64,000 bases of DNA from Spirochaetes bacterium ADurb.Bin133 (GTDB lineage Bacteria; Spirochaetota; GWE2-31-10; MWDO01): positions 88,886 to 152,885 of the forward strand of contig MWDO01000001.1 of assembly GCA_002070605.1 (NCBI GenBank), in the 5' to 3' direction. Position numbers and translations under genes: made by a program. This document shows positions 26,126 through 31,108 of this stretch, piece after piece. Position 1 is the first letter of the stretch. Every line of letters begins with the position of its first letter. Under the pieces are notes generated by a model. That model made no database searches and was not told the origin of the DNA. It was given only the letters and a program-made list of their open reading frames with translations.

Positions 26126-27151
26126 ATGAAAATAAAATTTATGCTTGCGATGTTTATTATTCTATCGATTGCGTTGGGGTGTAAAAAAGAGAGCGTAAAA
26201 CAAGATGCGCCGGATAAAGAGATTACGATAGGGCTCGCTTTAGGCGTAGGGGGGCTAGGCGATCAATCTTTCAACGATATGCAATACAACGGATTAATTG
26301 AACTCTCTAAAAACTTTGACGTAAATTTATTCTACGAGATACCGACCGGCGATTCGGAAGAAGAGATGTATAAAATTCTCGATAAGCTCTGTTCCGAAGA
26401 AAAATGCGATTTTGTTATTGCGGGGGCGGGCTATCTTATGATAAATCCTCTCGATAAAATATCGGATAAATATAAAGATACAAAATTTGTTCTTATAGAC
26501 GATTACGCCGTATTAAAAGATAACGTTTCTTCTATAGTATTTGCTCAGGAGGAGGGCTCTTTCGTAGTAGGAAGTCTCGCCGCGTATTTTTCAAAAACTA
26601 AAAAAGTCGGGTTTATCGGGGCGGTAGATATGCAAGTAATTAAATCTTTTCTGAACGGATTTAAAAAAGGGATAGCTTACGCCGACGATTCAGTAGAATT
26701 GATTGAGGAATATATAAGTTTTGGGAAAGATAACGACTATTCCGGATATGATAACCCAAAAAGGGCTTATGAAATAGCTAAAAAGTTATACGATTCCGGT
26801 TGCGACGTTATATATTCGGTAGCCGGCGCTTCGGGGAACGGTATTATACAATGCGCCGCCGATATGAAAAAATACGTTATAGGGGTTGATTCCAATCAGG
26901 ACTTTATGGCGAAAGGGTACGTTTTAACAAGCATGATGAAAAGATTGGATAGAGCCGTTTACGATATTGCGGAAAATTTTATAAATGGAAATTTTGTCGG
27001 CAACAAAAATTATTTATACAGCTATAAAAACGGCGGAATAAGTACGACCGATATGAGATACTCCGAAACGCTTATTGGAGAAAATGTCTTAAAAAAAATA
27101 AGAGACATTGAGGCAAAAATATCTAAAGGCGAGATTTCCGTCAAAGACTAA
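26126..27151 (+). CDS. Bmp/PnrA-type substrate-binding lipoprotein
   Basis: A 341-residue lipoprotein. The signal peptide ends in the lipobox SIALGC, so the mature protein begins at Cys about residue 19 and is anchored to the membrane. The mature part is a basic membrane protein (BMP) family type I periplasmic-binding fold, with GLGDQSFNDMQYNGL, FVIAGAGYLM, IGAVDMQVIKSFLNGFKKG, and VAGASGNGIIQ with IGVDSNQD. Treponema PnrA (TmpC) of this family binds purine nucleosides for an ABC importer. The matching ATPase and permease genes are absent here; the flanking genes are unrelated, so it either uses a permease encoded elsewhere or acts as a sensor. Confidence 0.88.
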   Translation: MKIKFMLAMFIILSIALGCKKESVKQDAPDKEITIGLALGVGGLGDQSFNDMQYNGLIELSKNFDVNLFYEIPTGDSEEEMYKILDKLCSEEKCDFVIAGAGYLMINPLDKISDKYKDTKFVLIDDYAVLKDNVSSIVFAQEEGSFVVGSLAAYFSKTKKVGFIGAVDMQVIKSFLNGFKKGIAYADDSVELIEEYISFGKDNDYSGYDNPKRAYEIAKKLYDSGCDVIYSVAGASGNGIIQCAADMKKYVIGVDSNQDFMAKGYVLTSMMKRLDRAVYDIAENFINGNFVGNKNYLYSYKNGGISTTDMRYSETLIGENVLKKIRDIEAKISKGEISVKD

Positions 27152-27302: not shown

Positions 27303-28586
27303 ATGTACAGTTTGGACGATTCGTTAATGTCGGATAGTTCCGACGAGCCTCCTGGAGGACGCGTAAATGAAGAGTTATTATCCCGCCTATTGTCGTCGTC
27401 GAGCGACAATAATCGACTTGGGTTTGAAAGCGAGTATTTTTATAATACAGACAGACCTAAGCGTCCGTTAAACGATAGATCTAAAGACTTTATAGAACGA
27501 TATTATTCGCCGCATTTATCCGATCGTACGTGGAATGATTGGAGATGGCAGATACGGAATTCTATAGTAGATTACGATCGTCTGGAAAGTATGTTCGGGG
27601 AGGCGGTAGATAAAAGCGGTTTGGTTGAGAAGAAACTACCGTTTAGGATCACGCCTTACTATGCAAGCGTTGTTAAAAATTCAAAGCCGTTGCAAAAAAC
27701 GGTAATTCCTTCGATAAACGAACTAATAGTTTCGGATGGGGAGGCGATAGACCCCCTAAAAGAGGATTGCGATAGTCCCGTAAAGCGTATAGTTCACAGA
27801 TATCCGGATAGAGTTTTATTTTTAGCTACAAATTTTTGTTCGACTAATTGCCGTTATTGCACCAGATCGAGGATAGTGTCGAATAACGATTTCTTTAAAA
27901 AACAGACGGTCGAATGGGAGCGGGCTTTTAAATATATAAGGGAGCGCAAAGAGATTAGAGATATAATAATATCCGGAGGAGATCCGTTGACGTTGCCGGA
28001 TATATCTTTAAACTATCTTTTAAATAATATTTTTTCAATTCCGCATATAGAAATGGTAAGAATTGGGACAAAAGTCCCGGCGGTTATGCCCATGCGTATA
28101 AATAAGCGGTTAATAAAGATACTGAAAAACTACAAGCCGCTGTATATGAGTATTCATTTTACGCATCCGGACGAGATAACCGAAGAGGTATCTAAAGCGT
28201 GTAATATGTTGGCCGACGCGGGAATAGTAATGGGGTCGCAAACGGTGTTGCTTAAAGAGGTAAACGATAATCCTCAAACTATAAAGAGCCTATTTCATAA
28301 ACTTTTAAAAATCAGAGTTAAACCGTATTATTTATACCAATGCGACCCGATAATGGGGGCTTCGCACTTTAGGACTCCCGTAGAAAAAGGTATAGAGATA
28401 ATAGATAAGCTTAGAGGCTGGACTTCGGGGTATGCGATACCTCATTATGTTATAGACGCGCCGGGAGGGGGAGGGAAAATACCGTTATTACCGGATTACT
28501 ACCGCGGTAGAGGCGAAAACGGAGCGGTTTTGCTAAGAAATTATGAAAACAATAGATATAGTTACCCCGATTATAACCTTGCTTGA
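27303..28586 (+). CDS. kamA: Lysine 2,3-aminomutase family radical SAM enzyme
   Basis: The ATG at 27303 is used because GAGGAG lies six bases before it; the ATG at 27285 overlaps that binding site. The product has 427 residues, close to the 416 of clostridial KamA and longer than EpmB (about 340). The radical SAM motif is CSTNCRYC (about residues 179-186). KamA uses PLP and SAM to turn L-lysine into beta-lysine. The PLP lysine is in DAPGGGGKIP (about 391) and both Asp residues that bind the lysine side-chain amine in KamA are kept (YQCDPI and YVIDAPG), whereas glutamate aminomutases replace them. The N-terminal 40 residues are Ser/Asp-rich and variable. It heads a cluster with two ATP-grasp ligases and a GNAT acetyltransferase; the first ligase begins 59 bases on. 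Confidence 0.9.
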   Translation: MYSLDDSLMSDSSDEPPGGRVNEELLSRLLSSSSDNNRLGFESEYFYNTDRPKRPLNDRSKDFIERYYSPHLSDRTWNDWRWQIRNSIVDYDRLESMFGEAVDKSGLVEKKLPFRITPYYASVVKNSKPLQKTVIPSINELIVSDGEAIDPLKEDCDSPVKRIVHRYPDRVLFLATNFCSTNCRYCTRSRIVSNNDFFKKQTVEWERAFKYIRERKEIRDIIISGGDPLTLPDISLNYLLNNIFSIPHIEMVRIGTKVPAVMPMRINKRLIKILKNYKPLYMSIHFTHPDEITEEVSKACNMLADAGIVMGSQTVLLKEVNDNPQTIKSLFHKLLKIRVKPYYLYQCDPIMGASHFRTPVEKGIEIIDKLRGWTSGYAIPHYVIDAPGGGGKIPLLPDYYRGRGENGAVLLRNYENNRYSYPDYNLA

Positions 28587-28645
28587 TAATTTAGTTAATG
28601 TCGTAAATTGAGCGCGTAAAAATGATTTATATATAGGAAGAAACA

Positions 28646-29632
28646 ATGAAGATAGGTTTAACGTACGATTTGAAAGAGGATTATCTAAAAGAGGGTTATA
28701 GCGTCGAGGAAACGGCGGAGCTTGATACTCCGGAAACGGTAAATAGGATAGAGTCGGCGATTAATAAACTTGGATATGAAACCGAGCGTATAGGCAACAT
28801 TAGGTCTTTGGTCGGAAGATTAAACGATAACGCCAGATGGGATATGGTTTTTAATATATGCGAAGGGATAAACGGGACTTATTCCAGAGAGTCGCAAGTT
28901 CCGGCTCTTTTGGAGGCTTATAATATCGCTTATACGTTTTCCGATCCTATCGTTTTGGGGATTTCTCTTAAAAAAGATTTAGCCAAAACGATTGTTAGAG
29001 CGAACGGATTTAAAACGCCCGATTTTTTTGTTATTAAAGGTCCGGAAGACGTAGAGAAAATCGATTTGCCTTATCCGTTATTTGTTAAGCCGCTCGCCGA
29101 AGGGTCGAGTAAAGGAGTCGCCGATAAATCAAAAGTTGGAAACAAAAATCAACTAAAATCAGCCTCCTTAGAGCTTCTTAAAAAATTTAAGCAACCCGTT
29201 TTAGTCGAGACTTACTGTTCGGGAAGGGAGTTTACAGCCGGTTTAATCGGAACGGGAATAAAAGCGGAATGTATAGGCGGCGTGGAGGTGGTTTTAACTG
29301 AAAAAGCCGAAAAAAATGCATATTCTTATAAAAATAAGACGATGTGCGAAGAAGCGGTAGAATACAAGCCGATTACGGATAAAAAACTGGACGAGGAGAT
29401 AAAAAAGTTCGCCGTAGACGCGTGGAGGACTTTGGAATGCCGAGACGCAGGAAGAATCGATATTATGCTTGATAAAAACGGCGATATAAATTTTATTGAA
29501 GTAAATCCTTTAGCCGGATTAAATCCGAACTATTCGGATTTGCCTATAATGTTTTCCATGTTGGGGAGAAGTTACGAAGAGTTAATAGAACTTATTGTTA
29601 ATTCGGCTTTGGATAGAGTAGAAAAGAGGTAA
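28646..29632 (+). CDS. ATP-grasp ligase, D-Ala-D-Ala ligase-like (first of pair)
   Basis: A 328-residue ATP-grasp protein. ATP-binding and metal motifs are present: PLFVKPLAEGSSKGV (phosphate loop), ETYCSGREFTAGLIG, and GRIDIMLDKNGDINFIEVNP (magnesium-binding Asp and Glu/Asn), followed by LAGLNPNYSDLP as in Ddl. The N-terminal third lacks the close match to Ddl that a housekeeping enzyme would show, and a second ligase follows, so it probably joins an amino or carboxylic acid other than D-alanine. Databases often name such genes ddl by default. It is followed by the second ligase after a single base. Confidence 0.85.
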   Translation: MKIGLTYDLKEDYLKEGYSVEETAELDTPETVNRIESAINKLGYETERIGNIRSLVGRLNDNARWDMVFNICEGINGTYSRESQVPALLEAYNIAYTFSDPIVLGISLKKDLAKTIVRANGFKTPDFFVIKGPEDVEKIDLPYPLFVKPLAEGSSKGVADKSKVGNKNQLKSASLELLKKFKQPVLVETYCSGREFTAGLIGTGIKAECIGGVEVVLTEKAEKNAYSYKNKTMCEEAVEYKPITDKKLDEEIKKFAVDAWRTLECRDAGRIDIMLDKNGDINFIEVNPLAGLNPNYSDLPIMFSMLGRSYEELIELIVNSALDRVEKR

Positions 29633-29633
29633 T

Positions 29634-30620
29634 ATGAAAAAAAATGTCGTTATAGCTTGCGATTATATTAAGAACCTTGATAGCGCGGCGGCGGACGCGC
29701 TCGATAATTTGAGTCAAGTCAATCTTATTCATCGATCGCTTACAAATTTGGGTTATAATACTTTGACTTTACAATTTGACGGTAATCTTTTAAACATAAA
29801 GGGCGCTTTGGAGAAGAATCGTCCGGCGTTTGTTTTTAATCTCGTGGAGGACGAAGCGTATATCTCTATAGCTCCGTTTTTTTTTGAAAGCATTAATCTT
29901 CCATATACAGGGTGTAGAGCGGACTCAATTTATCATACTCATAACAAACTTATATTTAAAAGATTTTTAAAATTTATCTCATTCCAAAAAAATATTCTTA
30001 CTCCGCGCTACGTTACCGCAAAGGATTTGTCGGAGTTTGTTCCGGATAAAAAGTACATATTAAAGCCGACGGATAGGCACTCTTCGATAAGTATTGATGA
30101 AAATTCCGTCAAATATTTTCAGAACGCTAAAGATATAAAAAGAGAGATACTTGATAGACAAAAAAAATATAACTTCGATTTCTACGCCGAGGAGTATATC
30201 GAAGGGAGGGAATTCAATATCTCTTTGCTAAACGGTAAGATTCTTCCGAGAGCGGAAATTATTTTTAAAGATTATAAGGAGGACGTTCCAAAGATCGTTT
30301 GTTATAAATCAAAATGGGACGAGTCTTCCTTCGAATACAAAAATACTATTAGGTCTTTTGATAGAAAAATTGAGGATCAGAAATTATTTGACGATATGGA
30401 CGACGTTATAATATTTTTGTCCCGCGTATTAAGCATAAAGACGTACGCTAGATTTGATTTTAGAATTGATAAAAACGGTAATTGTTATTTGCTGGAAATA
30501 AACGCAAACCCGTGTTTAAACGACGATAGCGGATTTTACGCGGCGGCTAATAGGGGCGGATTGTCTTACGACGAGATGGTTAGCGCTATAATCAAGTCGA
30601 GTTTAAAGAGTTATTTATGA
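29634..30620 (+). CDS. ATP-grasp ligase, D-Ala-D-Ala ligase-like (second of pair)
   Basis: Also 328 residues, but clearly diverged from its neighbour. It has the family motifs in altered form: LPYTGCRADSIYHTHNKLIFK, YILKPTDRHSSISID (phosphate loop with Arg-His instead of the Gly-Ser run), EEYIEGREFNISLLNG and RFDFRIDKNGNCYLLEINANP. The closing Glu-x-Asn-x-x-Pro for magnesium is intact, so it should be active. It starts one base after the first ligase with GAGG upstream and overlaps the GNAT gene by four bases, so the three are translated together. The pair may make two successive amide bonds or form a heterodimer; both are inference. Confidence 0.83.
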   Translation: MKKNVVIACDYIKNLDSAAADALDNLSQVNLIHRSLTNLGYNTLTLQFDGNLLNIKGALEKNRPAFVFNLVEDEAYISIAPFFFESINLPYTGCRADSIYHTHNKLIFKRFLKFISFQKNILTPRYVTAKDLSEFVPDKKYILKPTDRHSSISIDENSVKYFQNAKDIKREILDRQKKYNFDFYAEEYIEGREFNISLLNGKILPRAEIIFKDYKEDVPKIVCYKSKWDESSFEYKNTIRSFDRKIEDQKLFDDMDDVIIFLSRVLSIKTYARFDFRIDKNGNCYLLEINANPCLNDDSGFYAAANRGGLSYDEMVSAIIKSSLKSYL

Positions 30621-31108
30621 TTAATTTAGACAAATATCAAATTAGAGATTACGTTAAGGAAAGCGACGCCGAAGTAATCGAAAAAATTACAAGAGAAACA
30701 AACTATTTTACGAAAGAGGAGACTTTGATCGCTAGAGAATTGGTCGAGGAACGTCTTCAAAAAGGAATAAAAAGCAGTTATCTTTTTAATATTCTTGAAA
30801 AGGAGAGCGAAATTGCCGCTTATAGTTGCTTTGGAGAGGTTCCATGTTCTTATATCAGCTACGATCTCTATTGGATTGTAGTTAGAAACGATTTGAGAGG
30901 GAATGGAATCGGCGCTTATCTATTGAAAAAAAGCGAGGAGTATATAAAGAAACTCGGCGGTTATCAAATCTATCTGGAGACGTCGTCAAAAGATCTGTAC
31001 GCCCCTACAAGGAATTTTTATATAAAAAACGGTTACAAAGAGTCGGCGGTATTTAAAGACTTCTACAATTTTAACGACAATAAAATAATTTTTAATAAAA
31101 TTCTATAA
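30617..31108 (+). CDS. GNAT-family N-acetyltransferase
   Basis: A 163-residue acetyltransferase. The acetyl-CoA pyrophosphate loop is RGNGIGAYLL (Q/R-x-x-G-x-G/A, about residues 95-104), preceded by the beta-4 strand DLYWIVVRNDL and followed by ETSSKDLYAPTRNFYIKNGY. This subtype, with the YDLYWI strand and the Tyr-x-x-x-Arg-x-Phe-Tyr helix, is one I associate with ATP-grasp/Ddl-like gene pairs. In methanogens and some bacteria KamA is paired with a GNAT enzyme (AblB) that makes the osmolyte N-epsilon-acetyl-beta-lysine; here the ligases in between suggest a different final product. It is the last gene of the cluster. Confidence 0.85.
   Translation: MINLDKYQIRDYVKESDAEVIEKITRETNYFTKEETLIARELVEERLQKGIKSSYLFNILEKESEIAAYSCFGEVPCSYISYDLYWIVVRNDLRGNGIGAYLLKKSEEYIKKLGGYQIYLETSSKDLYAPTRNFYIKNGYKESAVFKDFYNFNDNKIIFNKIL

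Follow-up and report, generated by a model that had tools for sequence, protein, structure and literature searches.

A conserved operon of a KamA-family aminomutase, two Ddl-like ATP-grasp ligases and a GNAT acetyltransferase that may make a beta-lysine-derived metabolite

Layout of the operon

In the 64,000 nt stretch of Spirochaetes bacterium ADurb.Bin133 analysed here (contig MWDO01000001.1, positions 88,886 to 152,885; hereafter the window), four consecutive genes encode a KamA-family aminomutase, two ATP-grasp ligases resembling D-alanine-D-alanine ligase (Ddl), termed Lig1 and Lig2, and an N-acetyltransferase of the GNAT family. These genes are one operon, with a gap of 59 bp between KamA and Lig1, a single base between Lig1 and Lig2, and an overlap of 4 bases between Lig2 and GNAT. 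It is well supported that they constitute one functional unit, which works on small molecules and forms amide bonds at the expense of ATP. The features are as follows:

27303..28586, + strand: KamA-family radical S-adenosylmethionine (SAM)/pyridoxal phosphate (PLP) aminomutase, lysine 2,3-aminomutase-like (TIGR00238, alignment with 2A5H, conserved residues)
28646..29632, + strand: Lig1, Ddl-like ATP-grasp ligase with an acidic N-terminal insert (Dala_Dala_lig_C, own clade; accompanies KamA across phyla)
29634..30620, + strand: Lig2, second Ddl-like ATP-grasp ligase (Dala_Dala_lig_C, own clade)
30617..31108, + strand: GNAT N-acetyltransferase, ortholog of Dde_3044 (PDB 2R7H) (profile and AlphaFold model)

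The KamA open reading frame (ORF) extends from 27285, where the ORF caller placed its start; as a Shine-Dalgarno sequence (GAGGAG) lies immediately 5' of the ATG at 27303, the latter is the better start. A previous sequence-only reading of this DNA had placed the four genes at these positions, including the KamA start at 27303, and both the ligase spacing and the Lig2/GNAT overlap that it described were seen. Pfam and NCBIfam name the products KamA family radical SAM, Dala_Dala_lig_C (for both ligases) and GNAT, with no listed equivalog cut-off passed by any of them. The host genome (G000) comprises 2.99 Mb in 103 contigs, and has a near relative in a Spirochaetes metagenome-assembled genome (MAG; locus L039), the Lig1 of which is 87 % identical.

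The four enzymes and their relatives

The KamA protein aligned with lysine 2,3-aminomutase (PDB 2A5H) over 352 residues (371 bits) and scored above the cut-off of the KamA family, TIGR00238. It fell short of both the AblA equivalog TIGR03820 (436 bits; cut-off 525.4) and TIGR03821, the profile for EpmB of the elongation factor P (EF-P) pathway (237 bits; cut-off 369). The cysteines of the CxxxCxxC motif (Cys185/189/192), Asp354, Asp391 and the PLP lysine (Lys398) were identical in 74 of 74 KamA proteins from the clusters (residues are counted from the 27285 start; subtract 6 for the 27303 start). We take Asp354 and Asp391 to be the equivalents of clostridial Asp293 and Asp330, which bind the side-chain amine of lysine. 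Glutamate 2,3-aminomutases have other residues in place of this pair, and its retention therefore favours a lysine-type substrate; both aspartates and the PLP lysine had been noted as kept in the sequence-only reading, and are so in all 74 relatives as well as in the 2A5H alignment. As such, the residues support KamA as a probable lysine-specific enzyme. A second KamA of the host genome (L120:1495-2622), 41 % identical to the first, keeps both aspartates, but the glycine motif preceding its PLP lysine is shortened; it is possibly an EpmB-like enzyme. Among 150 genomes of the window's phylum, all 17 with a KamA above 428 bits also carry Lig1 or Lig2, and the remaining KamA proteins score no higher than 387 bits. 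The same phylum additionally contains a second, more distant pairing of KamA with a Ddl-like ligase, in one of its families (f6), found without Lig2 or GNAT (L167:6865-9113, L168:6918-9108, L169:6694-8975 and L170:8145-10389).

Neither Lig1 nor Lig2 is the Ddl of the cell, because a separate true Ddl is present on contig C30 of the host genome and the three kinds of protein form distinct clades. Against TIGR01205 (cut-off 245.65) the separate Ddl scored 275 bits, Lig1 136 and Lig2 73, and both ligases were below every listed NCBIfam Ddl cut-off. In a maximum-likelihood tree of 90 rows, true Ddl, Lig1 and Lig2 were recovered as separate clades with Shimodaira-Hasegawa-like approximate likelihood ratio test (SH-aLRT) values of 99, 100 and 98, respectively; two paralogues first labelled 'other' belong to the Lig1 clade, and L024, labelled Lig2, lies outside the Lig2 clade with distant paralogues. 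A housekeeping Ddl role was rejected on these scores and clades and on the donor residues described below, in keeping with the earlier view of the ligases as diverged.

Residues were compared across 100 Lig1, 85 Lig2 and 19 true Ddl sequences. The ATP-grasp residues Lys, Lys, Asp, Glu and Asn (ATP/Mg), together with the acceptor arginine (Ddl Arg255), are conserved at 98-100 % in both ligase clades. The Ddl donor residues Glu15, His63 and Tyr216 are replaced in both: Glu15 and His63 are invariant in true Ddl, the latter being Glu in 100 % of Lig1 and Lig2, and the position of Tyr216 is occupied by Trp in every Lig2 (100 %) and by Glu in most Lig1 sequences. Furthermore, Lig1 has an N-terminal insert and an invariant Asp8, Glu25 and Asp27 in the region equivalent to the Ddl donor site, an acid-rich setting that would suit beta-lysine or another donor bearing additional amines. 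An AlphaFold2 model of Lig2, with a predicted local distance difference test (pLDDT) score of 92, has the Ddl fold; its nearest solved folds are Ddl, and the closest curated names of the ligases are all Ddl/Van.

Two further groups of Ddl-like proteins were seen. ORFs of 640-730 aa in Spirochaetes (L029-L038) have a C-terminal Ddl-like ATP-grasp domain. As they match Lig1/Lig2 they were considered as ligase fusions, a reading that was set aside, the one that was read (L037:388-2328) being methyltransferase-like in its N-terminal half, followed by ATP-grasp. Additionally, a Lig2-like ligase is paired with a putative zinc metallopeptidase (Peptidase_Mx) at L171:5533-7554 and L176:6731-8751.

The AlphaFold2 model of GNAT (pLDDT 96) matched PDB 2R7H with a TM-score of 0.94, a root-mean-square deviation of 0.7 and 36 % identity, and in a profile search 2R7H scored 185.7 bits, with the next PDB chain at 32.6. 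The structure is that of the Desulfovibrio protein Dde_3044 (Oleidesulfovibrio alaskensis G20), and its deposited name is 'putative D-alanine N-acetyltransferase'. The AblB-type acetyltransferase profile, TIGR03827, had no match anywhere in the host genome, and the full sets of profile matches for Lig2 and GNAT did not include TIGR03103, the synthetase of N-acetylglutaminylglutamine amide (NAGGN).

Recurrence and variants in other genomes

A Lig1 profile run against 84,980 species genomes yielded at least 541 confirmed relatives, the best 80 of which were kept as loci; 50 of these were well flanked (at least 2.5 kb upstream and at least 4.5 kb downstream). As the loci were chosen by Lig1 alone, the neighbouring genes are independent evidence: KamA was found in 46 of the 50, Lig2 in 44, GNAT in 42, all four genes in 41 and a fifth gene, described below, in 14. 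Across all 80 loci, complete sets occur in Thermodesulfobacteriota, Myxococcota, Pseudomonadota, Bacteroidota, Planctomycetota, Spirochaetota, Acidobacteriota, Ignavibacteriota, Aminicenantota and Krumholzibacteriota, as judged by record titles that are in many cases coarse MAG names. The 2R7H sequence served as a second seed in 395 genomes spread evenly over the phylum of a Smithella (G162), and a GNAT of this type was present in 119 of them. In 40 such loci that were read, Lig1 and Lig2 adjoin on the same strand in every case and KamA is also present in 33. The association of these genes is not due to chance, because their order is conserved in 41/50 and 33/40 independently seeded loci, which bears out the single unit proposed by the sequence-only reading.

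The linkage between Lig2 and GNAT is particularly tight: in the 50 well-flanked loci, GNAT accompanies 42 of 44 Lig2 genes and is found in no locus that lacks Lig2. KamA and Lig1 occur without Lig2 or GNAT in L051, L090, L111 and L179. That Lig2 and GNAT travel together, and that KamA and Lig1 can stand alone, suggests the order KamA, Lig1, Lig2, GNAT. A plasmid search for the cluster returned remote Ddl-like matches only. Just upstream of KamA in the window, on the same strand, lies a gene for a PnrA-like (Bmp) lipoprotein (26126-27151), which was not seen as a conserved neighbour of the operon in other loci.

Several loci carry fusions or additional genes. Lig1 and Lig2 are fused in L015, and Lig2 and GNAT in L044 and L113. 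In 19 of the 80 loci a fusion of GNAT with an HDAC-type domain (putative acetylpolyamine amidohydrolase) lies within or beside the operon, and some relatives carry such a fusion elsewhere in the genome. The HDAC half of this fifth gene is closest to known acetylpolyamine amidohydrolases (9gkz, 235 bits; 6phr, 230 bits). At L105:5740-6213, the ligases, GNAT and an HDAC fusion are accompanied by an N-terminal fragment of KamA only, possibly a broken or misassembled copy. A CxxCxxCC (YkgJ-like) protein is encoded between KamA and Lig1 in several Planctomycetota and in L179 (e.g. L102:7512-7997 and L179:7309-7860); in one relative of the window's family this protein is below the Pfam cut-off.

A pyruvoyl arginine decarboxylase gene directly precedes a diverged Lig1-Lig2-GNAT set, with KamA not nearby, in L223, L227, L228, L232 and L237, and four of these five loci also contain an agmatinase and/or deoxyhypusine-synthase-like gene. 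In the genome of L228 (G359), KamA was found elsewhere on the chromosome by walking 1.6 Mb. Finally, a Lig1 cousin is fused to a peptidase S58 domain and followed by an HDAC-domain gene at L175:6332-9482, and an S58 gene 63 % identical to that domain lies beside KamA-Lig1 at L111:8962-10230. Among the members of the S58 family are DmpA and the BapA beta-aminopeptidases, enzymes that remove beta-amino acids from the N-terminus.

A candidate beta-lysine pathway, its alternatives and known systems

We favour, with a probability of roughly 0.6, a dedicated small-molecule pathway in which lysine is converted to beta-lysine, ligated and acetylated. The substrates, step order, acetyl position and cellular role that follow are those we infer from the observed genes, conservation, clades, residues and fusions. 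KamA would turn L-lysine into beta-lysine; Lig1 would convert a cationic donor (in all likelihood beta-lysine) to its acyl phosphate and couple it to a carboxylate-bearing acceptor; Lig2 would make a second amide bond; and GNAT, acting immediately after Lig2, would N-acetylate one of the product's amines. It is likely that KamA and Lig1 form the minimal unit, to which Lig2 and GNAT are added as a module. The GNAT/acetylpolyamine-amidohydrolase fusion of many relatives may remove acetyl groups, which would fit either turnover of the product or a protective role of the acetylation. The expected product is a di- or tripeptide of beta-lysine, perhaps N-acetylated, that would stay inside the cell and act as a solute, a store or a stress metabolite. 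By analogy with N-epsilon-acetyl-beta-lysine and NAGGN, an osmolyte role is plausible, the former being an osmolyte in Pelobacter carbinolicus and methanogens (PMC3543383).

Such a beta-lysine peptide or amide was the proposal of the sequence-only reading. Its foundations stand, namely a co-conserved operon, ligases other than Ddl and lysine-type residues in KamA; the peptide or amide itself continues to be a predicted product, and the polyamine-linked variants allow other acceptors. Several observations weigh against the proposed pathway. KamA is under every curated equivalog cut-off. The loci of relatives hold no conserved transporter or osmotic regulator beside the operon, only lineage-specific genes, and an HDAC-type deacetylase domain is absent from the host genome. 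Moreover, polyamine genes adjoin the ligases in five relatives, and the S58 association is confined to two loci, which is thin support.

Of the alternatives, the one that survives best, although we consider it unlikely, is that Lig1 and Lig2 link a polyamine (such as putrescine, agmatine or homospermidine) to beta-lysine or to a different carboxylate, the aminoacyl-polyamine then being acetylated and deacetylated. The arginine decarboxylase directly before Lig1 in five loci and the agmatinase and/or deoxyhypusine-synthase-like gene in four point this way, as does the deacetylase domain nearest to acetylpolyamine amidohydrolases. However, the five loci may represent one lineage, as they share their wider gene order; no such polyamine genes were found in the other loci examined; and the carboxylate-binding acceptor arginine of Ddl is kept in Lig1 and Lig2. 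More doubtful still is a variant of the AblA/AblB route that ends at N-epsilon-acetyl-beta-lysine, with the ligases in a separate role. KamA and an acetyltransferase are both present and the osmolyte logic is known from the organisms above (PMC3543383), but GNAT is not AblB, the host genome having no TIGR03827 match, and it is linked more tightly to the ligases (40/40) than to KamA (33/40), with Lig2-GNAT fusions besides.

It is very improbable that KamA feeds the beta-lysylation of EF-P and that its neighbours, the ligases and GNAT, lie there by chance and have cell-wall or housekeeping roles. KamA relatives do serve EF-P, and an EpmA-like gene is present in the host genome (287.0 bits against a cut-off of 286.9), yet supply of EF-P by the operon is unlikely because this gene and the second KamA, which is available for that purpose, are located elsewhere; in addition, the window KamA is below the EpmB cut-off, the operon is conserved in many phyla and the true Ddl is separate. 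Least probable of all is that one ligase modifies peptidoglycan through D-Ala-D-Ala or D-Ala-D-X ligase activity, as the Ddl/Van names and Ddl fold might suggest, given that all listed cut-offs are missed, the clades are separate and Glu15/His63/Tyr216 are replaced.

On a broader reading of the beta-lysine pathway, to which we give slightly less than even odds, ∼30 % of the sampled species in the Smithella phylum and members of at least nine further phyla share an unrecognised biosynthetic route to acetylated beta-lysine peptides, or beta-lysyl-polyamines, that would be new as a class and would serve the cell in some general way. If the pathway is real, bacterial chemistry gains a beta-amino-acid metabolite. 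It is directly testable, as its four enzymes are small, the structure of an ortholog of one has been solved, and anaerobes commonly carry relatives. Current annotation splits the operon into 'KamA family protein', 'D-alanine--D-alanine ligase' (twice) and 'GNAT', so that the pathway is probably invisible in many genomes. The sequence-only reading had expected automatic names to have this effect, and the label of 2R7H fits that expectation. No description of the operon was found in the papers searched, and we claim no priority; related operons may already figure in a survey from 2009 of the genes that neighbour ATP-grasp amidoligases. As far as seen, the enzyme classes are known, and their combination and product are uncharacterised.

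The operon can be compared with several known systems. With Ddl, Lig1 and Lig2 have the fold, ATP/Mg residues and acceptor arginine in common, but they differ in clade and donor-site residues, and the true Ddl is located elsewhere in the host genome. GNAT is of the same family as 2R7H by both fold and sequence, and no published function was found for the latter beyond its D-alanine N-acetyltransferase label. Pyrrolysine synthesis employs a radical SAM lysine rearrangement (PylB) followed by an ATP-grasp ligase (PylC). The operon would likewise couple a radical SAM lysine step to ATP-grasp, but its enzyme is an aminomutase rather than PylB; the Lig2 of one relative matched PylC weakly (26 bits; cut-off 248). 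In the NAGGN system (Ngs/AsnO), an ATP-grasp ligase and a GNAT make an acetylated dipeptide osmolyte. The same two enzyme types occur here, fused in L044 and L113, whereas TIGR03103 is not matched by Lig2 or GNAT, KamA takes the place of the amidotransferase and there are two ligases. Lastly, as in AblA/AblB, a KamA-type aminomutase adjoins a GNAT, but here the GNAT is of another family, two ATP-grasp ligases intervene and a deacetylase fusion is often added.

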